Origin: a virus
Reading direction: 5' to 3' (one strand)
Virus record (IMG/VR): IMGVR_UViG_3300023174_000064
Location: 82,038 to 146,037 of that record
Length of the DNA stretch: 64,000 nt
The position numbers and the translations under genes are program-made. Under the pieces are notes generated by a model. The model saw only the letters and a list, made by a program, of their open reading frames with translations. It had not been told where the DNA came from and ran no database searches. Shown here in pieces: positions 51,003 through 63,155 of this stretch. Position 1 is the stretch's first letter. Each line of letters starts with the position of its first letter.

Positions 51003-51031
51003 TTGACACAGCACTCCCAACTTGTTAGAAT
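51003..51031 (+). promoter_or_regulatory. Leaderless early promoter TTGACA-17-TAGAAT
   Basis: Six bases separate the -10 box from ATG 51038, placing the start codon at +1. Confidence 0.85.
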
Positions 51032-51037
51032 GAACGC

Positions 51038-51334
51038 ATGACCACCAACAACAACAACCTTCCGCCCGTCGTTCAGATCGTGCTGCCCGTCACCACCGTC
51101 CGCAACCTGCTGACCCTGCTGGAAGAGTGCAGCAGCACCTGGTCGGTTGACACTGAAACTGTGACCGCCATCCGCCGCGAGTACACCAGCGAGATGATCC
51201 GCCACGGCATCATCCGCCCGAGCGAGGTGAGCGTGATGACCCCGGACGAGGATCACTCGCACGAGGACGCCACGCAGAACGAGTACGATGCGGACAACGC
51301 GTGGCTGCGCTCGGCAGGCTGGGGGGAAATGTGA
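51038..51334 (+). CDS. Unknown early protein, 98 aa, leaderless
   Basis: Reads TTNNNNLPPVVQIVLPVTTV then ETVTAIRREYTSEMIRHGII and an acidic end. The start is fixed by the promoter. The stop overlaps the ATG of a tiny membrane gene. Function unknown. Confidence 0.82.
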   Translation: MTTNNNNLPPVVQIVLPVTTVRNLLTLLEECSSTWSVDTETVTAIRREYTSEMIRHGIIRPSEVSVMTPDEDHSHEDATQNEYDADNAWLRSAGWGEM

Positions 51335-51429
51335 TGATGTTCCTGCTCGGCCTGATCTTGTCCGTGGTGTTTGTTATGGGCATCGTGGCCCTAGATCACC
51401 TCACCTCCGAGTGGGGAAGTGGAGGCTGA
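51334..51429 (+). CDS. Tiny membrane peptide, 31 aa
   Basis: ATG overlaps the stop of the previous gene (TGATG). Reads MMFLLGLILSVVFVMGIVAL then DHLTSEWGSGG: one transmembrane helix with a short polar tail. Translational coupling to the previous gene and a G-rich site support it. Confidence 0.6.
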   Translation: MMFLLGLILSVVFVMGIVALDHLTSEWGSGG

Positions 51430-51445
51430 TCTCACAAGCCGAACC

Positions 51446-51477
51446 GGGATTCGTCCCCTGCCACCCTTCGGGGTGGC
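51446..51477 (+). terminator. Tandem UUCG hairpins
   Basis: GGGA-TTCG-TCCC (51446-51457) and GCCACCC-TTCG-GGGTGGC (51460-51477) sit after the tiny membrane gene. They likely end the transcript or stabilise the 3' end; the T-run is weak. Confidence 0.6.
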
Positions 51478-51484
51478 TAGGCTT

Positions 51485-51494
51485 GTTGATAGTA
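51485..51494 (+). repeat. GTTGATAGTA motif
   Basis: Copy lies within a CTTGT/ACAAG inverted repeat just after the tandem hairpins. Confidence 0.7.
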
Positions 51495-51516
51495 CAAGCT
51501 GGGTGTTCCGCTTGCT

Positions 51517-51545
51517 ATTGTACCACGGGGGACTGGGCGTGTCAA
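51517..51545 (-). promoter_or_regulatory. Minus-strand early-type promoter without ORF
   Basis: Minus strand reads TTGACA, 17 bp, TACAAT. No start codon follows; the transcript would run through the GTTGATAGTA copy and the hairpins. Confidence 0.6.
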
Positions 51546-51592
51546 GAGGGAAAATACCAAAAAAGAAAAAAAAGATTCCCCGTTCCACCCCC

Positions 51593-51621
51593 TTGACAAG
51601 CCACCCCCGATCCTGTATACT
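51593..51621 (+). promoter_or_regulatory. Leaderless early promoter TTGACA-17-TATACT
   Basis: Six bases to ATG 51628. Confidence 0.85.
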
Positions 51622-51627
51622 ACCCGC

Positions 51628-51819
51628 ATGAACACCACCAACCCCATCTACGACAATGGCGACGACTCCTTCGACTGGCACGAGGAGGAGGAGGCCATGA
51701 CTCCCGAGCGGATCGCGGAGTTGGAGGAGTGTGTACGCCTCCACAATGCCGAGCAAAACGGCGAGTTTGTGGACCCGTACGGGTTCCACGAGGATCCCAA
51801 CCAAATGTACGACGAATAA
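51628..51819 (+). CDS. Small acidic early protein, leaderless
   Basis: The 63-residue protein is very acidic (NGDDSFDWHEEEEAMTPERI) and possibly a mimic or inhibitor, but function is unknown. Confidence 0.8.
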   Translation: MNTTNPIYDNGDDSFDWHEEEEAMTPERIAELEECVRLHNAEQNGEFVDPYGFHEDPNQMYDE

Positions 51820-51822
51820 GGC

Positions 51823-51851
51823 TTGACAAGCCTGTTCGGATCGTGTACACT
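51823..51851 (+). promoter_or_regulatory. Early promoter TTGACA-17-TACACT with leader
   Basis: The leader of about 35 nt contains the GGGCCACAGGCCC hairpin at 51867-51879 and AAGGAAA before ATG 51893. Confidence 0.8.
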
Positions 51852-51866
51852 ACTTGAAACCCAACC

Positions 51867-51879
51867 GGGCCACAGGCCC
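51867..51879 (+). promoter_or_regulatory. Leader hairpin GGGCC-ACA-GGCCC
   Basis: Same hairpin as at 50363-50375, followed by a ribosome site. Confidence 0.6.
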
Positions 51880-51892
51880 AAAGGAAACCACC

Positions 51893-52201
51893 ATGTTTGA
51901 CGCTGCCACCATCGACCTGCACAACCTGCCCCCGGAACTGGATCGCATGGTTCAGACCCTGCTGATCGTGTCCCGCGAGGGCTGCACCGATGTCGGAGAA
52001 CTGATGCGACGCCTGTACGGAAATGTCTCCGACTACACCCCGAAGCAGCAGGACGAGTGCTGCACCCAGTACGCTCACATCCTGATGAAGATGTACGCGT
52101 GCAAGTGGATCACGGCTGCGGATGCCGAGTTCGTGGCCTTGACCGCCGCAGGCGTTGAAGCCGCCGACACCATGCGGGAGTTCTACCGGAACAACCCGTA
52201 A
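51893..52201 (+). CDS. Winged-helix-like early protein, 102 aa
   Basis: Reads FDAATIDLHNLPPELDRMVQ, TLLIVSREGCTDVGELMRRL, then YAHILMKMYACKWITAADAE and FVALTAAGVEAADTMREFY. The layout (helices, then a 'xLTAAG' turn) parallels the proteins at 57077-57403 and 58176-58457. A winged-helix DNA-binding fold is plausible. The start is ATG 51893, not the in-frame ATG at 51854, because the promoter ends at 51851. Confidence 0.75.
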   Translation: MFDAATIDLHNLPPELDRMVQTLLIVSREGCTDVGELMRRLYGNVSDYTPKQQDECCTQYAHILMKMYACKWITAADAEFVALTAAGVEAADTMREFYRNNP

Positions 52202-52306
52202 CCGAAACACTGTGGTGGTGTCCAAGTCCCCTGATCAGAGGAGGGTCTGGTCAGGGGCAACCACCCCCAAACATCCCAGTCAAACGAACCCAGGCTTCGC
52301 AGGAGC
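52202..52306 (+). other. Long 3' untranslated region
   Basis: About 100 nt of GC-rich sequence with several inverted repeats (CCCCTGATCAG / CTGGTCAGGGG). May be a structured RNA or a remnant gene. No ORF seen. Confidence 0.45.
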
Positions 52307-52338
52307 CACCCCGGCCTAAACCACCGGGGCGGGTTTGT
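52307..52338 (+). terminator. Possible terminator
   Basis: Stem CCCCGG / CCGGGG followed by a short T-rich GTTTGTTG. The T-run is weak. Confidence 0.5.
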
Positions 52339-52346
52339 TGATAGTA
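52337..52346 (+). repeat. GTTGATAGTA motif
   Basis: Copy directly after the hairpin, leading into the AT-rich repeat array. Confidence 0.7.
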
Positions 52347-52348
52347 TT

Positions 52349-52413
52349 GTTAAGATTGCGTTAAATTAATTTTGTGTTAAGATTTGGTTAAATTAATTTT
52401 GTGTTAAGATTTA
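52349..52413 (+). repeat. AT-rich tandem repeat, 27-bp period
   Basis: Two full units and one partial, each GTTAAGATT + 2 bases + GTTAAATTAATTTTGT, so GTTAA elements alternate at 11 and 16 bp. The complementary strand reads TTAAC-N6-TTAAC, like PhoB-family boxes. Confidence 0.8.
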
Positions 52414-52440
52414 ATAAAATATTTTAGGAGTCCACTTACT

Positions 52441-52469
52441 ATTGTACCTCCTGGTTTATTGTGTGTCAA
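52441..52469 (-). promoter_or_regulatory. Minus-strand early-type promoter without ORF
   Basis: Minus strand reads TTGACA, 17 bp, TACAAT and fires into the AT-rich repeats. Confidence 0.6.
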
Positions 52470-52517
52470 TCCGGAAAATGCCCGGAATTTAAAAATAAAA
52501 ATCTGTGCCTGACCCCC

Positions 52518-52546
52518 TTGACAGGCGGGGCCGGATCCGGTATACT
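52518..52546 (+). promoter_or_regulatory. Leaderless early promoter TTGACA-17-TATACT
   Basis: Six bases to ATG 52553. Confidence 0.85.
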
Positions 52547-52552
52547 ACCCGC

Positions 52553-52783
52553 ATGTGCAACACCACCACCACCATCTCCCCCGCCGCCTCCAACCTCGTT
52601 ATCACCTGCGTGGAACCCGAAATTTTTTGTGCGGAGTGTGGCTGTGAAATCTCGCCAGAAAACTGGCACTGTGCGCCCCAGTTTTGGGTGTATCGTTTCG
52701 GGGGTGGTCGCCACGAATGCTTGGAGTGCGGGAACGGCATTGAACCCGACGATCACGAACCGGGATTCGACCCTCAAGATTGA
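52553..52783 (+). CDS. Zinc-ribbon early protein, leaderless
   Basis: The 76-residue protein has two CxxC pairs: IFCAECGCEI and HECLECGNGI, with a tryptophan-rich spacer, i.e. a zinc ribbon. The stop is inside the terminator stem. The true start is ATG 52553, not the earlier in-frame ATG at 52505. Confidence 0.82.
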   Translation: MCNTTTTISPAASNLVITCVEPEIFCAECGCEISPENWHCAPQFWVYRFGGGRHECLECGNGIEPDDHEPGFDPQD

Positions 52784-52797
52784 GGGTTTTCTTTTTG
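52771..52797 (+). terminator. Intrinsic terminator overlapping the stop codon
   Basis: CCCTCAA / TTGAGGG then TTTTCTTTTT. Confidence 0.88.
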
Positions 52798-52806
52798 TTG
52801 ATAGTA
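52797..52806 (+). repeat. GTTGATAGTA motif
   Basis: Copy directly after the terminator T-run. Confidence 0.7.
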
Positions 52807-52826
52807 CGGGCCGATAACCAGAACCC

Positions 52827-52863
52827 CCTCCACCGGGACTGGTTCCCAATGGAGGGGGCTGCG
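52827..52863 (-). terminator. Terminator-like hairpin for minus-strand gene
   Basis: Inverted repeat CCCCCTCC / GGAGGGGG follows the stop of the minus-strand gene. Confidence 0.5.
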
Positions 52864-52876
52864 TTTGTTACCGGAC

Positions 52877-53029
52877 TTACCACTCGGTGTGGTCGATCCA
52901 CGGTTCCCAGTCATCGTGGCCGGGGTCGGTTGGCTCCTCGTTGTATTCCGGCCAGTTCTCTTGGAGGAACAGATCCTCGTTGTAGTCCGGGTGCTCCATG
53001 TCGTCGTCGGGGGTGGTGGGGTTCGTCAT
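52877..53029 (-). CDS. Small acidic protein on minus strand, leaderless
   Basis: The 50-residue protein starts TNPTTPDDDMEHPDYNEDLF and continues with tryptophan-rich acidic sequence (ENWPEYNEEPTDPGHDDWEP). The promoter at 53036-53064 has six bases to the ATG. It is the only minus-strand gene in the right arm and follows the same design. Confidence 0.75.
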   Translation of the reverse strand: MTNPTTPDDDMEHPDYNEDLFLQENWPEYNEEPTDPGHDDWEPWIDHTEW

Positions 53030-53035
53030 GCCCGG

Positions 53036-53064
53036 ATTGTAACCGAAACTCCCGGCCCTGTCAA
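53036..53064 (-). promoter_or_regulatory. Leaderless early promoter TTGACA-17-TACAAT (minus)
   Basis: Six bases to the ATG at 53029. Confidence 0.8.
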
Positions 53065-53101
53065 GAGGGAAACCAAATAAATTATTTCTGTGGCTACCCT
53101 A

Positions 53102-53130
53102 TTGACACAAGCCGGTCAGGTTGATATACT
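53102..53130 (+). promoter_or_regulatory. Leaderless early promoter TTGACA-17-TATACT
   Basis: Six bases to ATG 53137. Confidence 0.85.
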
Positions 53131-53136
53131 GCCTGC

Positions 53137-53301
53137 ATGAACCTCACCACCCAACTGATCAAGTATGAAGACGGCGAACTCACGCACGAAGAAACCGTGT
53201 GCCTGTTTCAGGAACTGCTCGACACAGGCATGATCGACCACCTGCAAGGCTCGTACGCTCGCGTGGCTCTGCACCTGTACAACAACGGCGAAATCGCCTG
53301 A
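53137..53301 (+). CDS. Small conserved phage protein (LFQELxDTGxxxxLQGSY), leaderless
   Basis: The 54-residue protein reads NLTTQLIKYEDGELTHEETV then CLFQELLDTGMIDHLQGSYA. This is a very common small protein of tailed phages, function unknown. First gene of a two-gene unit. Confidence 0.85.
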   Translation: MNLTTQLIKYEDGELTHEETVCLFQELLDTGMIDHLQGSYARVALHLYNNGEIA

Positions 53302-53313
53302 AAGGAACCCCCC

Positions 53314-53520
53314 ATGATCGTGAACATCTGCATCCATGTGCCTGACCTCGACCCCAACACCCCGTTGGCGTGGAACACCACCGACCGGATCGAACAGGAA
53401 CTGACCCCCGCCCTGCAACGGCTGACCGGATTCGGTCGGTACGGCAATTGGAACTGGTGGATCAATGTGGAGAACGGCGAAACCCGGTATATGCCGGAAA
53501 ATGTTTCGGAACTGTCTTGA
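53314..53520 (+). CDS. Unknown early protein, 68 aa
   Basis: Reads IVNICIHVPDLDPNTPLAWN, then a tryptophan-rich NWNWWINVENGETRYM stretch. An AAAGGA site precedes it. Its TGA stop lies inside the next -35 box. Confidence 0.75.
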   Translation: MIVNICIHVPDLDPNTPLAWNTTDRIEQELTPALQRLTGFGRYGNWNWWINVENGETRYMPENVSELS

Positions 53521-53545
53521 CACCGCACCCCGAACCGGATAGAAT
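53517..53545 (+). promoter_or_regulatory. Leaderless early promoter TTGACA-17-TAGAAT
   Basis: Overlaps the previous stop codon and leaves six bases to ATG 53552. Confidence 0.85.
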
Positions 53546-53551
53546 CCAACC

Positions 53552-53692
53552 ATGACCACCTGCCCCCGTTGCAACCACCCGGAAACCCCTGACCACCTGT
53601 CCGCATGGGAAGGTCTGTGCCAAAACTGTTGGGGGCAACTGGCCGAAGCCACCATGACCGACGAAGATCGGGAGTGGTTGGAAAAAAACTGA
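53552..53692 (+). CDS. Tiny zinc-ribbon protein, leaderless
   Basis: The 46-residue protein has two CxxC pairs (TTCPRCNHPE and GLCQNCWGQ) and an acidic tail. Confidence 0.78.
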   Translation: MTTCPRCNHPETPDHLSAWEGLCQNCWGQLAEATMTDEDREWLEKN

Positions 53693-53709
53693 AATGTTTC
53701 AGAAACCGC

Positions 53710-53738
53710 TTGACATCGCACCCCAAACCGGATAGAAT
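53710..53738 (+). promoter_or_regulatory. Leaderless early promoter TTGACA-17-TAGAAT
   Basis: Six bases to ATG 53745. Confidence 0.85.
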
Positions 53739-53744
53739 ACACCC

Positions 53745-53999
53745 ATGACCACCAAGACCTACAACGGATACCGCAATGCAGCCACCTACCGCACCGCCCT
53801 GTGGCTCACCAACGAGGAGCCTCTGTACCGCACCATGGTTGAACACTTCCGCGAGGAGGAGATCACCACGGCGAACGCCCGGTTCTTCTGCAACCTGCTG
53901 TGGCCGTGTGCGGAGAACCCGGACGGCGACGAACTCGCTGATGTGTACTGGCCGGACATCGTTCGCGTCATCCAAGACTGCACCGACATCGAAAACTGA
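53745..53999 (+). CDS. Conserved phage protein (DUF7249-like), leaderless
   Basis: The 84-residue protein reads TYNGYRNAATYRTALWLTNE then EPLYRTMVEHFREEEITTAN. The 'YNGWxNYETWxVALWLxNxxxLY' pattern is widespread in phages, function unknown. It is first in a two-gene unit. Confidence 0.82.
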   Translation: MTTKTYNGYRNAATYRTALWLTNEEPLYRTMVEHFREEEITTANARFFCNLLWPCAENPDGDELADVYWPDIVRVIQDCTDIEN

Positions 54000-54041
54000 A
54001 CTTTTTTACTAACCCCAAACCCCAAGGAAGGGAACCTCACT

Positions 54042-54284
54042 ATGCCACGAGTCACCGCCAATCTGAAGTCTTTCACTCCCCGTCACGGCAAGATCCGGAT
54101 CACTTTCGCCCTGATGTTTATGAAGGGCAAGGGCTACGAGTACTCGGGTCGCGGCAAGATTGCCTCCTCCCGTAACAAGTGGCGGCCCGAGCGTGCCTAC
54201 TTCTTCACGAACCGTGCCACCGGACAGCGGCTGACCCTGACCACCTCTGATCTGCGTCAGGCGTTTGCCACCGGAACCGTCTAA
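54042..54284 (+). CDS. Basic early protein, 80 aa
   Basis: Reads PRVTANLKSFTPRHGKIRIT and GRGKIASSRNKWRPERAYFF. Strongly basic, suggesting nucleic-acid binding. AAGGAAGGGAA precedes the ATG. Confidence 0.75.
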   Translation: MPRVTANLKSFTPRHGKIRITFALMFMKGKGYEYSGRGKIASSRNKWRPERAYFFTNRATGQRLTLTTSDLRQAFATGTV

Positions 54285-54408
54285 CAAAGCCTGTGCCACG
54301 GGCTAAAGTGGCCGGGTTGGCCGTTTGCCTGCACCAAAAACGGCCCAGTCGCCCGTCTTGAATACTGGTAAAGGTTTGGAATCACCTACTTGAGGACTTC
54401 CCGCTTTT
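54285..54408 (+). other. Long 3' untranslated region
   Basis: GC-rich sequence with inverted repeats (GGCCGGGTTGGCC) and no ORF. May be a structured RNA. Confidence 0.45.
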
Positions 54409-54437
54409 CCCCTTGAGTGTTATCAAGGGGTTTTTTC
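54409..54437 (+). terminator. Intrinsic terminator
   Basis: CCCCTTGA / TCAAGGGG followed by a T-run. Confidence 0.88.
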
Positions 54438-54448
54438 ATTTCCGGAAA

Positions 54449-54458
54449 GTTGATAGTA
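54449..54458 (+). repeat. GTTGATAGTA motif
   Basis: Copy 12 nt after the terminator T-run. Confidence 0.7.
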
Positions 54459-54480
54459 TTTAATTTAACCCAGACACTGT

Positions 54481-54509
54481 ATTATATCACAGATTCCGGA
54501 ACCTGTCAA
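54481..54509 (-). promoter_or_regulatory. Minus-strand consensus promoter without ORF
   Basis: Minus strand reads TTGACA, 17 bp, TATAAT, a perfect consensus, but no gene follows; transcript would cover the GTTGATAGTA copy and the terminator in reverse. Confidence 0.65.
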
Positions 54510-54556
54510 GTGGAAAACCGCCCGGAATAAAAAGATTTATTTCTGCGGTATAGGGC

Positions 54557-54585
54557 TTGACAAACCAACCCGGATGGTGTAGAAT
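54557..54585 (+). promoter_or_regulatory. Leaderless early promoter TTGACA-17-TAGAAT
   Basis: Six bases to ATG 54592. Confidence 0.85.
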
Positions 54586-54591
54586 GACCAC

Positions 54592-54912
54592 ATGGAAACC
54601 ACCAACACCATCCCGGCCTGTCCGAACCCCAACCTGTACGAGTTCATCATCCGCGTGCGTGACCGTCGTCGCAAGACGGGCTATCGGGTTGTGGTGACCG
54701 AACAGCGAGAGTTCCCGGATGCCGACACCGCAAAGATTTACGCAGAGAAGATGGAAGGCACAGACGGTCGCTACATTGTGGAGTTTCATCAGTTTTGGGT
54801 GCTGAAGCAGAACTTCATGGCCTCACAGCCCGGGTTCCCGGCGTACTTTTGGGAGGCGTACAACACCCCGTACTGCTGCTCTCCTGCATCCGAACTGTAC
54901 TGGACGATGTGA
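54592..54912 (+). CDS. Unknown early protein, 106 aa, leaderless
   Basis: Reads CPNPNLYEFIIRVRDRRRKT, VVVTEQREFPDADTAKIYAE, then an aromatic-rich end. Alpha/beta protein with a basic loop. Function unknown. Confidence 0.8.
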   Translation: METTNTIPACPNPNLYEFIIRVRDRRRKTGYRVVVTEQREFPDADTAKIYAEKMEGTDGRYIVEFHQFWVLKQNFMASQPGFPAYFWEAYNTPYCCSPASELYWTM

Positions 54913-55057: not shown

Positions 55058-55088
55058 GGGTTCTTGAGCGTATCAAGAACCCTTTTTT
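55058..55088 (+). terminator. Intrinsic terminator
   Basis: GGGTTCTTGA / TCAAGAACCC followed by TTTTTT. Confidence 0.9.
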
Positions 55089-55103: not shown

Positions 55104-55113
55104 GTTGATAGTA
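55104..55113 (+). repeat. GTTGATAGTA motif
   Basis: Copy directly before the AT-rich repeats. Confidence 0.7.
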
Positions 55114-55115
55114 TT

Positions 55116-55198
55116 GTTAAGATTGCGTTAAATTAAGATTGTGTTAAGTTTCGGTTAAGATTGGATTAATTTAAGTTTGTGTTAAGATTTGATTAACC
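55116..55198 (+). repeat. AT-rich GTTAAG repeat array, 27/11-bp spacing
   Basis: GTTAAG-type units at 55116, 55127, 55143, 55154 and 55181, spaced 11, 16, 11 and 27 bp. Same family as 52349-52413 but more degenerate. Confidence 0.75.
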
Positions 55199-55232
55199 GG
55201 AAAGTGGTCAGCCCGCCCTCCCAGCCCGATCT

Positions 55233-55612: not shown

Positions 55613-55641
55613 TTGACACCACGCCCCGGATCGGTTAGACT
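55613..55641 (+). promoter_or_regulatory. Leaderless early promoter TTGACA-17-TAGACT
   Basis: Six bases to ATG 55648. Confidence 0.85.
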
Positions 55642-55647
55642 ACCCCC

Positions 55648-55929
55648 ATGACCACCTTCACCTCATCCCGTTGGCGAAACCACCCGACCTACCTGTGTGC
55701 GTTGGAGGTGGAGATGGCGACCATCCCCGGCCCTGCGTTCGGTGCGTTCTTGGACTCCAATCCCGACCACCGCGACCACCATGAGGACACGGGCGAGTAC
55801 ACCATCTCGCCTGCGGCAGTCCGTGAGTGGTTCACCCTGAACCGTGCCGACCTGTTTGGCCCCGGTGACACCGATCTTGTGGACTGGACTGCCGTTGCCG
55901 CCTACATGGACACTTGGAACTGGTTCTGA
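55648..55929 (+). CDS. Unknown early protein, 93 aa, leaderless
   Basis: Reads TFTSSRWRNHPTYLCALEVE, then acidic and tryptophan-rich sequence (DLVDWTAVAAYMDTWNWF). Function unknown. Confidence 0.8.
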   Translation: MTTFTSSRWRNHPTYLCALEVEMATIPGPAFGAFLDSNPDHRDHHEDTGEYTISPAAVREWFTLNRADLFGPGDTDLVDWTAVAAYMDTWNWF

Positions 55930-55949: not shown

Positions 55950-55978
55950 TTGACAAACACCCCAACACCTGATAGGAT
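55950..55978 (+). promoter_or_regulatory. Leaderless early promoter TTGACA-17-TAGGAT
   Basis: Seven bases to ATG 55986. Confidence 0.82.
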
Positions 55979-55985
55979 ACACCCC

Positions 55986-56375
55986 ATGACCACCGTGACC
56001 TCCACCGCGCTCACCGCTCGCACCTCTGACCACCGATGGGATGATGACCTTCAAGCCGCCTACGCCGCAGGGAATGCCGCAGCGAACGCGATTGAGGTGG
56101 TTCCCATGACCGTGGTGGGCCGTGACCGCACCTACTGGGTGGAAGGCGGCGTGTGCGGGTTCGCTCGCGTCGAGGTTCGGCCTCGCACTTCTGCATGGGC
56201 CAAGTGGCTGCTGGCCACCGGGTGGCGTTCATCGGACTACTTCAAGTGCGTCACGCTGAACATTGACGGCTTCGGCCAGTCCATGCAGCGGAAGGAAGCG
56301 TTCGCCCAAGCGTTTGTTGACCACCTGACCCGGTTGGGCTACCCCGGCGTGTCGTACACCGCCACCATCGACTGA
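55986..56375 (+). CDS. Unknown early protein, 129 aa, leaderless
   Basis: Reads RWDDDLQAAYAAGNAAANAI, WVEGGVCGFARVEVRPRTSA and FVDHLTRLGYPGVSY. An earlier in-frame ATG exists (55914) but lies upstream of the promoter. Function unknown. Confidence 0.8.
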   Translation: MTTVTSTALTARTSDHRWDDDLQAAYAAGNAAANAIEVVPMTVVGRDRTYWVEGGVCGFARVEVRPRTSAWAKWLLATGWRSSDYFKCVTLNIDGFGQSMQRKEAFAQAFVDHLTRLGYPGVSYTATID

Positions 56376-56392: not shown

Positions 56393-56421
56393 TTGACCAC
56401 CCCACCCCTGAAAGGTACAAT
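56393..56421 (+). promoter_or_regulatory. Leaderless early promoter TTGACC-17-TACAAT
   Basis: Six bases to ATG 56428. Confidence 0.82.
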
Positions 56422-56427
56422 CCTCCC

Positions 56428-56727
56428 ATGAGAATCACCGCCAACCGATTGGAAACCCGTCTTGCGTTCATCAACCGTATGCTGGGCCGTCCTGCCACCC
56501 CGTACACCTACACCGCCAAGACTGTGGCCAATGTCGGCTGCTGGTACTTGAGTGCCAGCGAGTACGGGTACGAGGTGCTGGAGATTGTGACGGAGTCGGG
56601 TGGTGTCCAAGTGGTGTACCCGGCCATGCGTCCCAGCATCCTGTACGCCGTGCTGGGCGGGTTCTTGGACGGCATCAAGGCTCGTGGAACGGTGGATGAA
56701 GCCTACGCCACCACCTGTTCCATCTGA
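56428..56727 (+). CDS. Unknown early protein, 99 aa, leaderless
   Basis: Reads RITANRLETRLAFINRMLGR, then VVYPAMRPSILYAVLGGFLD. Alpha/beta small protein; function unknown. Confidence 0.8.
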   Translation: MRITANRLETRLAFINRMLGRPATPYTYTAKTVANVGCWYLSASEYGYEVLEIVTESGGVQVVYPAMRPSILYAVLGGFLDGIKARGTVDEAYATTCSI

Positions 56728-56746: not shown

Positions 56747-56775
56747 TTGACACCACGCCCAACCCCGGATACAAT
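56747..56775 (+). promoter_or_regulatory. Leaderless early promoter TTGACA-17-TACAAT
   Basis: Six bases to ATG 56782. Confidence 0.85.
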
Positions 56776-56781
56776 CCATCC

Positions 56782-57045
56782 ATGACCTTGACCACCACCA
56801 TCCAGTACTTGCGAAACAACGAAATCATCACTTCGGAAACCCGCAGTTTCCGGGGCAGGTGGATCGGAAACATTGAACGCAAGGCGATGCACCACGCCCA
56901 AGGTGACAGGCTGTTTGTGTACTGCAACCGGATCAACATCCTGTGTGAACTGCCGCACGGTGGCGTGAGCAACACCACATGGATTCTGACCCACCCGGTT
57001 CGACCGCTTGCAGAACTTGAATCAAAGTGTTTGGAAACTGCTTGA
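56782..57045 (+). CDS. Unknown early protein, 87 aa, leaderless
   Basis: Reads TLTTTIQYLRNNEIITSETR and WIGNIERKAMHHAQGDRLFV. Function unknown. Its TGA stop lies inside the next -35 box. Confidence 0.8.
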   Translation: MTLTTTIQYLRNNEIITSETRSFRGRWIGNIERKAMHHAQGDRLFVYCNRINILCELPHGGVSNTTWILTHPVRPLAELESKCLETA

Positions 57046-57070
57046 CACCCCAACCCCTGAAAGGTAAACT
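57042..57070 (+). promoter_or_regulatory. Leaderless early promoter TTGACA-17-TAAACT
   Basis: Overlaps the previous stop; six bases to ATG 57077. Confidence 0.82.
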
Positions 57071-57076
57071 ACACCC

Positions 57077-57403
57077 ATGAAATGCCCCACCAACCTGCTG
57101 CCTGAAAACCTGCCGCAAGACTTCGTGCAAGCGGCTGCCGTTTGCATCACCATCCAAGCGTTCGACAACATCCCGTGCCATGTGCAAGCGATCTACGACG
57201 GCCTGTACGGGGATGCGGTTGACCCGGATGCCGCCAAGCGGGAGTTGAGCCGGATGCTGGCCCGGATGGTTCGTGTGGGCCTGATCACCATGCCCAGCCA
57301 GTCCGGTACGGTGATCCTGACCGATAAGGGCGACGAAGCCGCCACCACATTCCGCGAGTTGTGGGTGGGTTCCGGCATCCTCGATCTGTCCGACCTGTGC
57401 TGA
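57077..57403 (+). CDS. Winged-helix-like early protein, 108 aa, leaderless
   Basis: Reads PENLPQDFVQAAAVCITIQA, ELSRMLARMVRVGLITMPSQ and SGTVILTDKGDEAATTFREL. The helix-helix-strand-LTDKG layout matches small winged-helix domains and resembles 51893-52201. Confidence 0.75.
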   Translation: MKCPTNLLPENLPQDFVQAAAVCITIQAFDNIPCHVQAIYDGLYGDAVDPDAAKRELSRMLARMVRVGLITMPSQSGTVILTDKGDEAATTFRELWVGSGILDLSDLC

Positions 57404-57422: not shown

Positions 57423-57451
57423 TTGACATGATCGACTTTCTGTGTTACACT
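57423..57451 (+). promoter_or_regulatory. Leaderless early promoter TTGACA-17-TACACT
   Basis: Six bases to a GTG at 57458. Confidence 0.8.
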
Positions 57452-57457
57452 ACCGCT

Positions 57458-57520
57458 GTGATGATTGCCACTCCGTTGGTGGCAACCTTCGTGACCTACT
57501 ACAGCCATGAGGACTTCTGA
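57458..57520 (+). CDS. 20-aa GTG-started leader peptide
   Basis: Reads MMIATPLVATFVTYYSHEDF and stops 3 nt before the ATG of the next gene. A leader peptide that could couple or regulate the gene downstream. Confidence 0.55.
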   Translation: MMIATPLVATFVTYYSHEDF

Positions 57521-57523
57521 CCC

Positions 57524-57730
57524 ATGACCACTCACACCATCATCGTGTTTCCCGACGGGGAAACTTGGAACACGGCAGATGGCTCTGCCATCATGGTCAT
57601 CACCGACCAGCAGTTCCGTGATCTGATTGAAGGCCGCATCAACGCAGGAGACATTCCGGCGATTGCGTCCATCTCGCTGGCAGACTTCACACCCGGCCCC
57701 CGCAACGGCTCACAGGAGAACACCAAGTGA
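57524..57730 (+). CDS. Unknown early protein, 68 aa
   Basis: Reads HTIIVFPDGETWNTADGSAI then QFRDLIEGRINAGDIPAIAS. A common small phage protein style; function unknown. It has no ribosome site, so it probably depends on reinitiation after the leader peptide. Confidence 0.75.
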   Translation: MTTHTIIVFPDGETWNTADGSAIMVITDQQFRDLIEGRINAGDIPAIASISLADFTPGPRNGSQENTK

Positions 57731-58005
57731 ACCACACACGGCCACCCATCCTGCCCGCAGCACGCAGTCGGATACTGCCTGTGCGGTGGTGCATGGAAGT
57801 GCTGTGGTGGGCTGGCTGGATTCACGAACGCACCATGACCATTGGTGGTTATCGGACTTACATCTGCCTCGACCCGGCAGGCCGGGTGAACTACCTGACC
57901 ACCTACGGGCTGCGACAGGCTGCATACGAGAACTACAGCAAGTACTGGCAAGAAAATCACTACCTCTTGACAACACCTCCAACACAAGGTACAATCCACA
58001 CATGA
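57727..58005 (+). CDS. Unknown early protein, 92 aa, GTG start
   Basis: Starts at a GTG that overlaps the previous stop (GTGA). Reads WCMEVLWWAGWIHERTMTIG, then YICLDPAGRVNYLTTYGLRQ. Its 3' end contains the next promoter. Function unknown. Confidence 0.7.
   Translation: MNHTRPPILPAARSRILPVRWCMEVLWWAGWIHERTMTIGGYRTYICLDPAGRVNYLTTYGLRQAAYENYSKYWQENHYLLTTPPTQGTIHT
57967..57995 (+). promoter_or_regulatory. Leaderless early promoter TTGACA-17-TACAAT
   Basis: Lies within the previous gene's end; six bases to ATG 58002. Confidence 0.85.
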
Positions 58006-58154
58006 TGAATCCGCAAGGCAAATGGTGCATCTACGATCCGCGACTCGACGGCTTTATTGCCGAATACTCCACCATGCTGGAGGCCCGGTCGTGGCTCGAC
58101 ATGACGCAGCCACCTGATACTGAACTGACTGTTGTGTTCGTGCCCGGTAACTAA
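58002..58154 (+). CDS. Unknown early protein, 50 aa, leaderless
   Basis: Reads MMNPQGKWCIYDPRLDGFIA then EYSTMLEARSWLDMTQPPDT. Its frame is the end of a longer ORF starting at 57627, but the promoter fixes the start here. Confidence 0.78.
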   Translation: MMNPQGKWCIYDPRLDGFIAEYSTMLEARSWLDMTQPPDTELTVVFVPGN

Positions 58155-58175: not shown

Positions 58176-58457
58176 ATGCTGCCTGAAGAACCTGACATGA
58201 CCATGAGCGAACTTCACGAGATGCTGGCCCAAGAACTGCCGCCTGCCAAGATTGAGAGGGCGGTGGAGGACTTGATTGCCAAAGGCATGGTGGAAACGCT
58301 GTGGGATGCTGACGGCAATGTGTCCTACCGCCTGACTGCCATCGGTCGTGTGGTGGGCAAGGCGATCAACGACCAGTACCAGTACGACACCGAACAGCAC
58401 GACGGCTGGCTGGGTGACGGCTGGGATGACGAGGGCTGGGATGACGGAGAAATCTGA
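58176..58457 (+). CDS. Winged-helix-like protein with acidic tail, 93 aa
   Basis: Reads MTMSELHEMLAQELPPAKIE, RAVEDLIAKGMVETLWDADG and VSYRLTAIGRVVGKAINDQY, then an aspartate/tryptophan-rich tail. Helix-turn-helix with a beta wing is likely. Confidence 0.72.
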   Translation: MLPEEPDMTMSELHEMLAQELPPAKIERAVEDLIAKGMVETLWDADGNVSYRLTAIGRVVGKAINDQYQYDTEQHDGWLGDGWDDEGWDDGEI

Positions 58458-58476
58458 AATAGTTTCAGATTCACTA

Positions 58477-58505
58477 TTGACACACGCTGCAACACCGGAT
58501 ACAAT
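58477..58505 (+). promoter_or_regulatory. Leaderless early promoter TTGACA-17-TACAAT
   Basis: Seven bases to ATG 58513. Confidence 0.82.
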
Positions 58506-58512
58506 CCACACC

Positions 58513-58785
58513 ATGAAGAACCCCCAATTCAACGACGAGTTCGATCACACCAACGATGACGGGTACTACCAGTTTCAAGACTCGCAGGACATCCGCGACG
58601 AGTGGCTGCGTGAGGAGGAAGAGTACTGGAGCGAGGGCACACTCGACCCGGCAGACTCCGGCGAGTACGACCCGGTGGACGAGTCCGATAACTCTGAAGC
58701 CACCGATGAGTGGAGTGACGAGGACATGGACGAGACTCCCATCGGCCTTGAGTACGACGGGTACAACGATCCCGATAACTTCTGA
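58513..58785 (+). CDS. Very acidic early protein, 90 aa, leaderless
   Basis: Reads KNPQFNDEFDHTNDDGYYQF and a long acidic run (EATDEWSDEDMDETPIGLEY). Strong negative charge suggests DNA mimicry, but that is inference. Confidence 0.78.
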   Translation: MKNPQFNDEFDHTNDDGYYQFQDSQDIRDEWLREEEEYWSEGTLDPADSGEYDPVDESDNSEATDEWSDEDMDETPIGLEYDGYNDPDNF

Positions 58786-58867: not shown

Positions 58868-58896
58868 TTGACACCACACACCCAATCGGGTACAAT
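58868..58896 (+). promoter_or_regulatory. Leaderless early promoter TTGACA-17-TACAAT
   Basis: Six bases to ATG 58903. Confidence 0.85.
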
Positions 58897-58902
58897 ACAC
58901 AC

Positions 58903-59076
58903 ATGAACAAGCCTGTCACCATCACCCTGACCAACAAGCAAGCACACCTGATGCTGGACTACTTGAGCGATCTTCACTTCGATGGAGAAGCCCAAGTGTA
59001 CAACGAGGATGTGCCTGACCTGCGAACCATTGTGGACACCTTGGCTGACACCATCGAACAAACGGAGAACGCATGA
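58903..59076 (+). CDS. Unknown early protein, 57 aa, leaderless
   Basis: Reads NKPVTITLTNKQAHLMLDYL, then acidic helix. First in a three-gene operon. Confidence 0.78.
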   Translation: MNKPVTITLTNKQAHLMLDYLSDLHFDGEAQVYNEDVPDLRTIVDTLADTIEQTENA

Positions 59077-59291
59077 CAGACGAAGCAGACAACGACGAAG
59101 GCAACCCCAGCACCGCGAAGCGAGCCACCTACCATATCATCATCGAAGCCAGCGATGTGGAGGACACCGAGTTTCAGGTGGAGGAAGTGAACGACCTGAC
59201 CGAACAACTGGGCCGGATGCTTTCATTCAACGGCACGGTGTGGCTGGACGAGGTGGAGTACGACGAGGACACCAACGAGGAGGAAGTCTGA
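59073..59291 (+). CDS. Unknown acidic early protein, 72 aa
   Basis: ATGA overlap with the previous gene. Reads ATYHIIIEASDVEDTEFQVE and ends EDTNEEEV. Function unknown. Confidence 0.75.
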   Translation: MTDEADNDEGNPSTAKRATYHIIIEASDVEDTEFQVEEVNDLTEQLGRMLSFNGTVWLDEVEYDEDTNEEEV

Positions 59292-59560
59292 TGGCAACGC
59301 TGCGAGCCTGTTACTTGAACGATCCCAACGCGATCCGTGACTTCATGGTGCGCCATGTGGTGTTCCGTGTGAAGTTCCGCAAGAAGGATGGCACGATCCG
59401 TAGCCTGCTGGGCACGGTGGAGCCGGGGTTTCTTGGTGTGAACACACCAAACGGCACAGGCAATCCGAACTATGACGAAGCCATCCCTGTCTACGACATG
59501 GAGAGGCAAGCATGGCGTGCGTTCAAGCCGGACAATGTGTTGGAACTTCACTCTGTCTGA
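59291..59560 (+). CDS. DUF2693-like SH3-type early protein, 89 aa
   Basis: ATG shares one base with the previous stop. Contains VVFRVKFRKKDGTIRSLLGT and IPVYDMERQAWRAFKPDNVL, the same domain pattern as at 39750-40187. Function unknown. Confidence 0.75.
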   Translation: MATLRACYLNDPNAIRDFMVRHVVFRVKFRKKDGTIRSLLGTVEPGFLGVNTPNGTGNPNYDEAIPVYDMERQAWRAFKPDNVLELHSV

Positions 59561-59578
59561 AATAATTTCAGAAATCAC

Positions 59579-59607
59579 TTGACACTCACCCCAAACTGTG
59601 GTACAAT
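59579..59607 (+). promoter_or_regulatory. Early promoter TTGACA-17-TACAAT with leader
   Basis: Leader of about 17 nt with AAAGGA before ATG 59631. Confidence 0.82.
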
Positions 59608-59630
59608 CCACACAACGAAAGGACACACAC

Positions 59631-59957
59631 ATGACGAACGACCAATGGAAACTGTGGGAAGACAGCATGGCACTTGCACCTGAAATCACGACGGCAATGT
59701 TCAATGCCCGCGTGAAGGAGATGACGCAGGCCGAAGTGATTGACCTGTCTCGTTGCCTGCTGACCGTGACTCGCTGCATTGAGAGTCTCGCTGCTGGCCG
59801 CATCACGGAGAAGCGTGATGTGGAGGACTTGGCTGACCTCACCATGAGCATGATGAGCGGAATGTACGGCAGGCTGATGGGGTTGGCAAGGGCGTATGAC
59901 ACGCTCATCACCAAGCAGGTGATGCTGGAGGCTGAACTGGCCTCGACGGGGAAGTGA
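59631..59957 (+). CDS. Unknown helical early protein, 108 aa
   Basis: Reads TNDQWKLWEDSMALAPEITT and MYGRLMGLARAYDTLITKQV. Helical, probably oligomeric. First of a two-gene unit. Confidence 0.78.
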   Translation: MTNDQWKLWEDSMALAPEITTAMFNARVKEMTQAEVIDLSRCLLTVTRCIESLAAGRITEKRDVEDLADLTMSMMSGMYGRLMGLARAYDTLITKQVMLEAELASTGK

Positions 59958-59977
59958 TACTGGTTTGGGGTTGCCTG

Positions 59978-60001
59978 CCGCCGGATGAAACACTCCGGCG
60001 G
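59978..60001 (+). other. GC-rich hairpin between genes
   Basis: Stem CCGCCGGA / TCCGGCGG with an 8-nt loop, before the ribosome site of the next gene. No T-run, so it may be an attenuator or mRNA stabiliser. Confidence 0.55.
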
Positions 60002-60026
60002 TAGGTTTATGGAGGAAGCACACTCA

Positions 60027-60230
60027 ATGTACATCGTTCTCGCTGTGGCAATCCTTGCCACCATCATCGTTCTTGGCATCCAGTTTGTTCTGTTCGTGAT
60101 CGACCACGAACGCCGCGAACAACTCCGCGACCTGTACGAAGCCAAGCAGGACAAGTTCCTGAATGTGTACACCAAGTCCGATAACAACAGCAAGTACCGC
60201 AAGACCAAGCAGACCAAGCGAAAGAAATAA
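60027..60230 (+). CDS. Single-pass membrane protein with basic tail, 67 aa
   Basis: ATG 60027 has a GGAGGAAG site. Reads YIVLAVAILATIIVLGIQFV (transmembrane), then a lysine-rich coil (KQTKRKK). The ORF's earlier ATG (59985) would include the hairpin. A membrane anchor on the cytoplasmic side is likely. Confidence 0.75.
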   Translation: MYIVLAVAILATIIVLGIQFVLFVIDHERREQLRDLYEAKQDKFLNVYTKSDNNSKYRKTKQTKRKK

Positions 60231-60244
60231 TTTCAGAAGTGGGC

Positions 60245-60273
60245 TTGACACACACCACACCTTGTGGTACAAT
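60245..60273 (+). promoter_or_regulatory. Early promoter TTGACA-17-TACAAT with leader
   Basis: Leader with GAAGGAA before ATG 60294. Confidence 0.82.
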
Positions 60274-60293
60274 CCCAGCACGAAGGAAACACC

Positions 60294-60890
60294 ATGACAA
60301 CCCCCAAGTTCAACATCGTCCAAGTGTACGCCAGTCTGAACGCCAAGCCCGGAGGCTCGCAGCACACTCGTCTGCTGTGTGTGGAGATGGGCATTGTGTT
60401 TGTGACTGTCACCTCGCCTGCCACAGACGGTGGTTGGACTTCACAGTACCTGTGGTGCTGGCCCCGTGTGAACGGTCTGTCTCAAACATGGCTGCTGGGT
60501 GACAACATCGGCGGCAAGGACGGCAAGCCGTGGACACGCAACGATCCCAACACAGCGGTGGACGGCATGGGCATTCCATACGCTCACACCGATGCGGTGG
60601 CACACATCACCGCGCTGGCAGCAGCCGGGTATGTGGATTGGAGCAAGGCTGCCTACAGCGGCAGACCGATTCCCAATCTGTTCAGCGATGCCACCCTGAT
60701 GCCACAGTCTTACGCCAAGGTGACTCCACCCGGCAAGCCCACGCAACGACAGGCTTCCAACGATCCGCTGCAAGTGCAGGGACAAAGCCCGGTTCACGAA
60801 ATCGCTGATCTCATCAACTCGTTGGGGATTCAGACTGTGTTTCCCACCACCGAAGATATGAACGCCATCAGCAAGATGAACCCGCTATGA
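60294..60890 (+). CDS. Unknown early protein, 198 aa
   Basis: The longest right-arm protein. Reads FNIVQVYASLNAKPGGSQHT, then a tryptophan/glycine-rich middle (WPRVNGLSQTWLLGDNIGGK) and a proline-rich linker. Function unknown. Confidence 0.78.
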   Translation: MTTPKFNIVQVYASLNAKPGGSQHTRLLCVEMGIVFVTVTSPATDGGWTSQYLWCWPRVNGLSQTWLLGDNIGGKDGKPWTRNDPNTAVDGMGIPYAHTDAVAHITALAAAGYVDWSKAAYSGRPIPNLFSDATLMPQSYAKVTPPGKPTQRQASNDPLQVQGQSPVHEIADLINSLGIQTVFPTTEDMNAISKMNPL

Positions 60891-61222
60891 AGAATCCAAA
60901 CATGACATCACAGGAATACATGGAACGGTTGCGTGAGGAAGGTGCAGCAGGCATCGGGTGGTTCAACCACCGTGGCGTGCGGTACACTCTGAAAACCAGC
61001 AGGCGAAATACCATCCCGGTGCAGACCGCACTTCACATTCTGTTGCTGGAAGGATGGACGGATGTGGAGTACTACACCGCACTTCGGGTGTACCGTGCCC
61101 GGAACCCGGATGGTGAATGGGTCGATATGTCGGTGGACACCGTGCGGTGGACTGCACTTCACATTGTGTACTGTGGAATGAAAAAGACGAAAAGTTCATT
61201 TGACAACCCGCAACCTGTGTGA
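60887..61222 (+). CDS. Unknown early protein, 111 aa
   Basis: ATGA overlap with the previous gene. Reads TSQEYMERLREEGAAGIGWF and WTDVEYYTALRVYRARNPDG. Its 3' end contains the next promoter. Confidence 0.75.
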   Translation: MKNPNMTSQEYMERLREEGAAGIGWFNHRGVRYTLKTSRRNTIPVQTALHILLLEGWTDVEYYTALRVYRARNPDGEWVDMSVDTVRWTALHIVYCGMKKTKSSFDNPQPV

Positions 61223-61228
61223 TACAAT
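61200..61228 (+). promoter_or_regulatory. Leaderless early promoter TTGACA-17-TACAAT
   Basis: Six bases to ATG 61235, inside the end of the previous gene. Confidence 0.85.
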
Positions 61229-61234
61229 ACCACC

Positions 61235-61435
61235 ATGCCAAAGCGACACATCGACCAATTCGACATTGAAGCAGAGCGTGAAGGTGCAGCCGTGCGTCTG
61301 TCCGGCCAGCAGGTGTGCAAGCCGTTTGGCTATGGCCGTGGTATCACCAAGCAGCGTCGAATGCAGAAGGACGGCGCAGCCAAGGTGGAGTGCCGTACCA
61401 TCAAGCAATCGTTCGGAAAGTTTTCCTATGCGTAA
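61235..61435 (+). CDS. Small basic early protein, 66 aa, leaderless
   Basis: Reads PKRHIDQFDIEAEREGAAVR, then KPFGYGRGITKQRRMQKDG. Strongly basic, possibly nucleic-acid binding. Overlaps the next start. Confidence 0.76.
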   Translation: MPKRHIDQFDIEAEREGAAVRLSGQQVCKPFGYGRGITKQRRMQKDGAAKVECRTIKQSFGKFSYA

Positions 61436-61640
61436 GTGCATGAAGTGTGACTGCGAGATTCCTGCTGTTCGGTTGGAAGCCCTGCCGTACACCACGACCT
61501 GTGTGAAGTGCAGCACCACCAAGGCATATGTGGGGTTCATGTCATTTGCCCACAAGACCGCCCCCGACATTGTGATGGTCAACCCTGATGACAGGGAGAA
61601 CTTGCGTCGGGCTGTGGCGATCCATGAAAGGCGACGATAA
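61428..61640 (+). CDS. DksA/TraR-like zinc finger protein
   Basis: The 70-residue protein reads RKCMKCDCEIPAVRLEALPY followed by TTTCVKCSTTKAYVGFMS. The 'CxxC..IPxxRLEALPxxxxCVxC' motif is the DksA/TraR zinc finger of small phage versions. It may bind RNA polymerase, but the coiled-coil tip seen in DksA is absent. Confidence 0.78.
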   Translation: MRKCMKCDCEIPAVRLEALPYTTTCVKCSTTKAYVGFMSFAHKTAPDIVMVNPDDRENLRRAVAIHERRR

Positions 61641-61930
61641 TGTGCAACACATGGCGTGAACGATACGGCCCAGCAGTAGACTCCGATCAGACTGTGGAGT
61701 GTGTGATGTGTGGTTACACACTACATGGCGATGATCCACCAATCGGCGTGGTGTGTCTTGATTGCTGGAATGGTGGTCAGATTCTCCGTGACCGCGTGGT
61801 GTGCAACGGCTGTGCGTCCGATAACGGATGGCACGGCGACAAGACCACCACCGATACACACCCTGATGGATTCACCTGCGATGAGTGTGGCGAAACTTTC
61901 CCTTGCGAAAATCTTTCGGAAAACACTTGA
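61640..61930 (+). CDS. Multi-zinc-ribbon protein, 96 aa
   Basis: Starts TAATG with the previous stop. Four CxxC pairs: ECVMCGYTL, VCLDCWNGG, VCNGCASD and TCDECGETF. Two zinc sites are likely. Its stop lies in the next -35 box. Confidence 0.78.
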   Translation: MCNTWRERYGPAVDSDQTVECVMCGYTLHGDDPPIGVVCLDCWNGGQILRDRVVCNGCASDNGWHGDKTTTDTHPDGFTCDECGETFPCENLSENT

Positions 61931-61955
61931 CACCCACCACTCCCTGTGGTACAAT
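61927..61955 (+). promoter_or_regulatory. Leaderless early promoter TTGACA-17-TACAAT
   Basis: Overlaps the previous stop; six bases to ATG 61962. Confidence 0.85.
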
Positions 61956-61961
61956 ACACAC

Positions 61962-62171
61962 ATGAGCAACGACGATCTCGACCACCTGTGCAAGATGCTG
62001 CAAAACTCCCACGACACCGCCTCCAAGGTGACTGGCATGGATGACACCATGTTCTTGCAGGCGTTGGATGGCATCAAGTGGCTGCGTGCCAAGTTGAAGC
62101 AGTACCAGCGAGCAGAGGCAGCAGCCGCAATGGATCGGCTGTCACAGTTTGACGAGGAGAACGGCCTGTGA
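61962..62171 (+). CDS. Unknown helical early protein, 69 aa, leaderless
   Basis: Reads SNDDLDHLCKMLQNSHDTAS then FLQALDGIKWLRAKLKQYQR. Helical; first of a three-gene unit. Confidence 0.76.
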   Translation: MSNDDLDHLCKMLQNSHDTASKVTGMDDTMFLQALDGIKWLRAKLKQYQRAEAAAAMDRLSQFDEENGL

Positions 62172-62419
62172 ACAACCCATACAACGAACTACCACACCCG
62201 GTGTTCCTGCGATATGTGGCACAGAACGACTACATGATCGACGGGTACTACCTGCCGGAAGGTGTGCGACTGAACGCAGCGGCGGATGAACTGGAGTCTC
62301 TACAGATTCGGTACGACGAACTGTGGAAGGCACACCAGCGGCTGGCACAGACCTGCAAGGAAGCAGAGGAGCGTGTTGACACTCTCCTAGAGCGTGTGAA
62401 AGAACGAGTACGCCCATGA
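62168..62419 (+). CDS. Unknown early protein, 83 aa, GTG start
   Basis: GTGA overlap with the previous stop. Reads NNPYNELPHPVFLRYVAQND and a long coiled-coil-like C-terminus (ERVDTLLERVKERVRP). Confidence 0.74.
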   Translation: MNNPYNELPHPVFLRYVAQNDYMIDGYYLPEGVRLNAAADELESLQIRYDELWKAHQRLAQTCKEAEERVDTLLERVKERVRP

Positions 62420-62748
62420 GTGACTACAAGCAGGCTGAACACTATGCAGGCATGAGCATCGAACGATGGGAAAGCCTGATGAAGAAGGTGGACGCAAACA
62501 CCGCAAGTGATGCAGACTTGACACCGGGCGAGCGTGGTGCTGGCTGGCACTTCTGCTCGCTGGGCTGGGATGGTCTGCTGATCTCTCCCATCGACTTGGA
62601 GTACAAGCATTGCGGATGCCCGGACAAGCAGCACCACAAGCGGGAGGCTTCATACTATGAACGGCTGCTGAAGGTAAAGCAATGGATCAAAGCAGAACCA
62701 CGAGACTACCCCCAAGACTTTCAAGAAAAGTTTGGAAATAAGGATTGA
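62416..62748 (+). CDS. Unknown early protein with cysteine pair, 110 aa
   Basis: ATGA overlap. Reads SDYKQAEHYAGMSIERWESL and KHCGCPDKQHHKREASYYER. Possible metal site; function unknown. Stop lies in the next -35 box. Confidence 0.75.
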   Translation: MSDYKQAEHYAGMSIERWESLMKKVDANTASDADLTPGERGAGWHFCSLGWDGLLISPIDLEYKHCGCPDKQHHKREASYYERLLKVKQWIKAEPRDYPQDFQEKFGNKD

Positions 62749-62773
62749 CAACATCCACAACCTGTGGTACAAT
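62745..62773 (+). promoter_or_regulatory. Leaderless early promoter TTGACA-17-TACAAT
   Basis: Overlaps the previous stop; six bases to ATG 62780. Confidence 0.85.
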
Positions 62774-62779
62774 ACACAC

Positions 62780-63124
62780 ATGACCAAGACCAAAGCCAAG
62801 ATCGTTTCGCACAAGCCGAAGTTCCTGCCACTCAACCGTCCTGTCAAGGGCACGGTGGGCCTGCAAGTTCACTTCGACGGCTACGCTCTGCCCAACTTTG
62901 GCGAGAGCGACACGGAGGTAGAAGTTCTCCGTGACATCCGTGAGGAGTTGGGCAAGCCGTTCAACAAGCGGATTGTGTACGCAGGCGATGGTGGTTCGAT
63001 GGACTACTTCTACATGGAGTGGGAAGGCAAGCCCAAGGACATGGCTCGTCTTGCCAAGTGGTTCCGTGAGGGCGACCAGTATCCTTTGCTCGCCATTCAC
63101 ACCGTGGAAATCTTCAAGATTTGA
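62780..63124 (+). CDS. Unknown early protein, 114 aa, leaderless
   Basis: Reads TKTKAKIVSHKPKFLPLNRP and DTEVEVLRDIREELGKPFNK, then MDYFYMEWEGKPKDMARLAK. Alpha/beta protein; function unknown. Confidence 0.76.
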   Translation: MTKTKAKIVSHKPKFLPLNRPVKGTVGLQVHFDGYALPNFGESDTEVEVLRDIREELGKPFNKRIVYAGDGGSMDYFYMEWEGKPKDMARLAKWFREGDQYPLLAIHTVEIFKI

Positions 63125-63126
63125 TC

Positions 63127-63155
63127 TTGACACACACCCAAACATCAGGTACAAT
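63127..63155 (+). promoter_or_regulatory. Leaderless early promoter TTGACA-17-TACAAT
   Basis: Six bases to ATG 63162. Confidence 0.85.

Follow-up and report, generated by a model that had tools for sequence, protein, structure and literature searches.

Promoters and genes of the GC-rich arm

The DNA analysed here is a window of 64,000 nucleotides, bases 82,038–146,037 of the 146,037-base IMG/VR record IMGVR_UViG_3300023174_000064, and our subject is an array of promoters at window positions 51003–63155, most of which are predicted to direct leaderless mRNAs in a putative early arm of a phage genome. The phage is uncultured and T4-like, with a gp23 capsid protein, a gp6-type baseplate wedge, a T4-type terminase, gp32, UvsY, a RegA-type translational regulator and a late coactivator. 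As judged by the capsid, cyanophages are the closest named relatives, their gp23 being up to 57% identical; no psbA-type photosynthesis gene features among the 25 Pfam families listed best for 85 body proteins, and no separate search was made for one. Most of the record has a G+C content (GC) of 26–46%; its first 4 kb have 56%, and the part from about 48 kb to the window end has 51–57%. The array resumes at the record's other end, with a promoter at C1:659 and a VWA/CobT-like gene at C1:694. Because related phages carry the VWA gene inside the same array, we join the two GC-rich ends, which probably belong to a single arm that the ends of the contig cut in two.

A regular-expression scan and a re-count both place 23 TTGAC[AC]-17-TANNNT promoters on the plus strand of 51003–63155, where dinucleotide shuffles yield a mean of 0.09 and a maximum of 1. 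Twenty of the 23 have a start codon 6 or 7 nt past the -10 box (binomial P ~2e-26 against the local ATG frequency), and simple chance is rejected as the source of the array. The gap is 6 nt at 18 promoters (17 ATG and one GTG) and 7 nt at two (55950 and 58477, both ATG). The three exceptions have leaders of 41 nt (51823), 23 nt (59579) and 20 nt (60245), with clear Shine-Dalgarno (SD) sites before the ATG, namely AAAGGAAAC, GAAAGGAC and GAAGGAAAC respectively. All spacings were counted from the promoter, and the -10 distance table of a mechanical gene caller was set aside because the caller left 19 early genes unresolved. An earlier note on this DNA had put the leaderless promoters at 20 of 24 on the plus strand plus one on the minus strand; we recover the 20 and the minus-strand case (at 53064), but the interval holds 23 plus-strand promoters, and 24 is reached only by counting 50319 (TTGACT...), a leadered promoter beyond its limits. 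The uniform 6–7-nt geometry described in that note is real, far beyond chance, and recurs in related phages.

The first transcription unit (51003–51334) has the promoter TTGACA-17-TAGAAT, a 6-nt gap and an ATG at 51038, and encodes a 98-aa protein. With the same 6-nt gap, leaderless promoters precede plus-strand open reading frames (ORFs) starting at 51628 (63 aa, 51593–51819), 52553 (52518–52783), 53137 (53102–53301, followed by an SD-led ORF at 53314–53520), 53552 (46 aa, 53517–53692), 53745 (53710–53999, then an SD-led ORF at 54042–54284), 54592 (54557–54912), 55648 (55613–55929), 56428 (56393–56727, with TTGACC), 56782 (56747–57045), 57077 (57042–57403), 58002 (57967–58154), 58903 (58868–59076, in an operon that goes on with SD-led genes at 59073 and 59291), 61235 (61200–61435), 61962 (61927–62171, the operon going on with 62168 and 62416), 62780 (62745–63124) and 63162 (63127–63593). 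The 7-nt promoters lead ORFs starting at 55986 (55950–56375) and 58513 (58477–58785). The weakest case is the GTG unit (57423–57520), which has the GTG at 6 nt, an ATG at 9 nt and an ORF of only 20 codons, followed by an ORF at 57524–57730. On the minus strand (52877–53064), TTGACA at 53064 and a 6-nt gap precede a 50-aa ORF starting at 53029. The leadered units provide internal controls: 51823–52201, with a promoter of the same type and its ATG at 51893, 59579–59957 (ATG 59631) and 60245–60890 (ATG 60294).

The small protein encoded at 51038–51334 has the C-terminal motif DADNxWLxSAGWGEM, which is common to relatives, and each of the five relatives has a related gene in its arm, oriented divergently to the array. 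Five further minus-strand TTGACA-17-TANNNT promoters, at 51545, 52469, 54509, 55261 and 55373, have no ORF behind them and point back from intergenic gaps; they could possibly make antisense or small RNAs. Just upstream of the -35 box lie CTGAAAnnnTTTCAG-like dyads that incorporate the preceding gene's stop codon (for example 53685–53707, 58455–58470 and 59558–59573) and that may be terminators or operators.

Transcription start and start-codon context

Four independent lines of evidence lead to the A of the ATG as +1, a start that is strongly predicted from the sequence. The first is the base at -1, which is C in 71 of the 72 genes with a 6-nt gap pooled from six genomes, compared with 29% before any ATG (P ~8e-37); in Mycobacterium tuberculosis the preferred start is likewise a purine at +1 with C at -1 (PMC3898074). 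Of the 95 promoters in these genomes that have an assigned ORF, 79 show the 6/7-nt geometry, and the gap is 6 nt in 72 genes, 7 nt in seven and 8 nt in one. Secondly, two of the three leadered promoters (59579 and 60245) keep C-A at the predicted +1 although no ATG is present there. Thirdly, no SD site precedes the leaderless start codons: mean anti-SD pairing is -3.9 before these ATGs, near the random background of -3.1, compared with -6.5 at operon-internal starts and -5.6 to -6.2 at leadered promoters, and an SD-led reading of the 6/7-nt genes is rejected. Finally, homologues from different relatives form 16 pairs, of which 11 begin at the same residue and five are shifted by 2–5 codons, and in all 16 each start, the shifted ones included, has its own promoter at 6–8 nt.

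The distance from the -10 box to +1 in bacteria varies by 1–3 nt, and such flexibility would allow transcription to begin elsewhere, either further downstream or upstream with subsequent processing, in which case the mRNAs would not be leaderless or the starts would be misassigned. We consider this very improbable, given the nearly invariant C at -1, the conserved start codons of homologues, and SD pairing that is weaker before these ATGs than at operon-internal starts.

The beginnings of the leaderless genes are also distinctive. Codons 2–7 are 80% A+C, whereas SD-led genes from the same stretches, a set chosen by a simple motif rule, have 54% (P 4e-19); the values for this phage by itself are 82% and 59% (P 3e-6). 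Further into the leaderless genes A+C drops to 52%. ACC and AAC are commonest at codons 2 and 3, and the first 40 nt fold with -2.0 kcal/mol compared with -6.6 kcal/mol in SD-led genes. CA repeats after the start codon are known to boost leaderless translation (PMC9031893). It is the A+C-rich codons 2–7 that can most readily be taken as a sign of selection on the RNA, not on the promoter.

Related phages and codon compartments

Searching viral contigs for the motif in a strict form led to five IMG/VR contigs with arrays, G006 (19 matches), G012 (13), G015 (23), G020 (15) and G023 (9), of which about 14 in G015, about 12 in G020 and 8 in G023 lie in one block; a control spacing of 16–19 nt gave 0–6 matches per array record. 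The T4-type capsid protein of G006, G020 and G023 is 61–64% identical to that of this phage, and arm genes of G012 and G015 are up to 80–87% identical to those of G006, G020 and G023. The arm in the window is more distant, its detectable links being the 768-aa VWA protein (24–26%), the 51038 gene and one weak match. Elsewhere the pattern has 11 matches in Thermus phage phiYS40, six in T4 and none in one cyanophage, and the four cyanophage-type records tested have 0–4 matches each and no array, from which cyanophage-wide inheritance of the array is rejected. Since the six matches in T4 are the chance level, single matches mean little and it is arrays that count. Arrays in five relatives and few matches in cyanophage-type records make this a feature of a lineage and not of one assembly. 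A near-identity search of the arm among phage records gave no match, and neither a viral-contig scan with the VWA protein nor a genome scan with an IMPDH-like protein gave a confirmed relative.

The gene at C1:694–3000 (L009) encodes a VWA-domain 'peptidase' (phrog_459) that is also present in the relatives, whose arms add a CobS-like AAA protein; in a cyanophage, the VWA and CobS genes adjoin each other, flanked by gp46 and the sliding clamp.

The arm differs from the rest of the genome in its codons. GC at third codon positions is 0.75 in early-arm genes and 0.275 in body genes, and the arm is almost without ATA, TTA, AGA and AAA (0.00 for both ATA and TTA), which in the body account for 0.34, 0.37, 0.39 and 0.66 of the codons for their amino acids. 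Seven tRNA genes on the minus strand at 30841–36644 (Gly-UCC, Glu-UUC, Ile-UAU, Asn-GUU, Arg-UCU, Leu-UAA and Lys-UUU) read the codons that the arm avoids and the body uses, plus those for Gly, Glu and Asn. Four relatives have a cassette of Lys-UUU, Leu-CAA, Arg-UCU and Ile-UAU inside the leaderless arm, and the relatives show the same split, with a GC-rich arm adjoining AT-rich DNA. The body has ATAAATA motifs resembling T4 late promoters, and its genes show only a slight excess of the same geometry at 6–7 nt. Three minus-strand body sites (33142, 38197 and 39522) have TTGACT-16/17-TANNNT with an ATG 6–7 nt on, and these may be leaderless genes outside the arm.

That the arm is a separate codon compartment is new here. 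We tentatively propose that the genome of this lineage is organised in two translational compartments, a GC-rich arm that is leaderless, CA-led and of host-like codon usage (with the tRNA cassette inside it in four relatives), and an AT-rich body expressed later with phage tRNAs, such that the switch between them would be both translational and transcriptional. The codon bias could instead be a non-functional trace of origin, with the arm imported as an island from another replicon; the change in GC is sharp, and beyond the links named above this arm has little similarity to those of the relatives. Such an import seems unlikely, however, as the same GC split occurs in all six records with a conserved VWA gene, the relatives' arms contain the CobS-like gene and VWA/CobS are T4-like core neighbours in cyanophages, and in four relatives the four-tRNA cassette sits within the arm.

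A predicted first-stage module

Predicted leaderless starts together with presumably host-like codons in the arm suggest a self-contained, host-adapted first stage of translation. We favour, with a probability of roughly 80%, the reading that the arm is a leaderless, host-adapted first-stage module with its own sigma-70/sigma-A-type promoters. The GC-rich arm would consist of short operons, each with its own strong promoter of this type set so that +1 is the A of the first ATG, and host RNA polymerase would fire all of these on phage entry. Host ribosomes would take the 5'-terminal AUG of the first cistron directly, aided by CA-rich unstructured codons 2–7, and the downstream cistrons would be translated via SD sites. 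The GC-ending codons, presumably host-like, would be translated at once with the host tRNA pool; the arm would deliver tRNAs (in the relatives). After it would come a body stage that has T4-type ATAAATA motifs and is in part SD-led and helped by tRNAs. The promoter geometry with its statistics, its recurrence in five relatives, the base at -1, the A+C bias, the codon split and the tRNAs are observed in the sequences, whereas in this scheme we infer the actual +1, the early timing, the use of host polymerase, the ribosome route and the host identity.

Several observations weigh against this scheme. The early timing is deduced from promoter type and gene content only, and almost none of the early-arm proteins could be given a function. 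The SD-led genes compared at codons 2–7 were picked by their motif, the pattern reaches six matches by chance in T4, and the match between tRNAs and codons includes Asn-GUU, which reads AAC besides AAT. A genome-collection scan with the strict motif gave nine matches in mixed phyla and no host lead, so that no host can be called. Repeat families D1 and D2 occur among the promoters, and 7 of 171 spacer pairs are at least 70% identical; this resemblance among some promoters implies that part of the uniformity reflects shared descent.

Taken further, the spacing as a whole could be inherited, a promoter and start-codon cassette having been duplicated with each acquired small gene and the spacing then kept by compact packing. 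Families D1, D2 and D4 span the promoter and first codons with 60–85% identity, and the pairwise identity of the spacers is 0.39 compared with 0.29 expected by composition. Even so, most spacers have diverged with the 6-nt gap intact, starts shifted by 2–5 codons carried the promoter along, leaders with SD sites are tolerated at three promoters, and the gap is identical in five relatives despite different spacers, and we regard duplication as a doubtful explanation of the whole. The earlier note had concluded that the uniformity implies selection for leaderless translation in the whole early region. The leaderless geometry extends to most first genes but not to operon-downstream genes and three first genes, which are SD-led. 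The C at -1, the CA-rich 5' ends, the kept spacing and the existence of an SD-leader class all point to initiation at the A of the ATG. Selection for leaderless translation as such is unproven, because some promoters look duplicated and a host with default leaderless starts would give the same pattern.

The latter possibility, that the arm follows the ordinary rule of a host from a group with normal leaderless genes (Actinobacteria or Deinococcota) and that nothing is phage-specific, is a serious one, albeit somewhat short of an even chance. Genes whose start codon follows TANNNT at a distance of about 12 bp make up about 19% in Actinobacteria and 39% in Deinococcus-Thermus (PMC3160421), and cluster O mycobacteriophages use this arrangement (PMC4351075). 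Much would be explained by the host alone if leaderless genes were usual in it, as in an actinobacterium, and ThyX, a class II ribonucleotide reductase and a GP88-family protein are consistent with such a host but do not demonstrate one. On the other hand, about 87% of the arm promoters are leaderless, exceeding those host averages, the downstream genes are freely SD-led, and the strict scan of genomes favoured no such phylum. A host rule of this kind is compatible with a first-stage module and would make the module less surprising.

The earlier statement that only isolated cases such as lambda cI are known was too strong, because leaderless classes have been reported in phiYS40 (PMC3594737) and predicted in cluster O (PMC4351075). 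Phage phiYS40 is comparable in that an entire expression class of a large phage lacks leaders, most middle and late transcripts being reported as leaderless (PMC3594737). That class is tied to a rise in IF2 and a fall in IF3, whereas here it is a putative early arm of a T4-like phage, with full -35/-10 promoters and nearly all of it leaderless by sequence. Cluster O mycobacteriophages (the Corndog group) have SigA-like promoters with +1 at the first base of the start codon; three such promoters are predicted per genome, and the available part of the report does not describe an array, a CA-rich start or a codon compartment (PMC4351075). Leaderless genes of Actinobacteria and Deinococcus-Thermus share the -10 geometry (PMC3160421, PMC3898074) but are a genome-wide minority, in M. 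tuberculosis without a conserved -35, whereas here almost all promoters of one arm are of this kind, with TTGACA. T4-like cyanophages (Kyanoviridae) resemble this phage in gp23 and in having the VWA 'peptidase' adjoin CobS, but lack the array in the four records tested. The lambda cI mRNA also starts at its AUG (PMC9031893), but is that of a single gene, a temperate repressor. Among openly licensed full texts, an entire arm of strong -35/-10 promoters in leaderless geometry, kept in a T4-like lineage and combined with an A+C-rich start and a codon compartment, is new, although an earlier report elsewhere is possible.

If this reading is correct, leaderless initiation would be the default of the phage's first wave of expression, conserved across a lineage and not a single-gene curiosity. 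The arm would offer a natural test bed, in which many first cistrons share one promoter type, with and without a leader, and have measurable 5' contexts, and a way to ask why a phage relies at first on host-like codons and leaderless mRNAs but later switches. The 6–7-nt spacing from TANNNT also marks true starts in such genomes, which should improve gene calling.

A further repeated element, GTTGATAGTA, has nine exact copies in the record, all within the early arm and mostly right after terminator-like hairpins. The sites are at window positions 50954, 51485, 52337, 52797, 54449, 55104, 55310 (minus strand) and 63993 (cut), and at C1:3646 and C1:4152; four relatives have none and G023 has a single stray copy. 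At 52337–52420 and 55104–55200, GTTGATAGTA is adjoined by repeats rich in TTAAGATT and TTAATTTT (repeat family D3).

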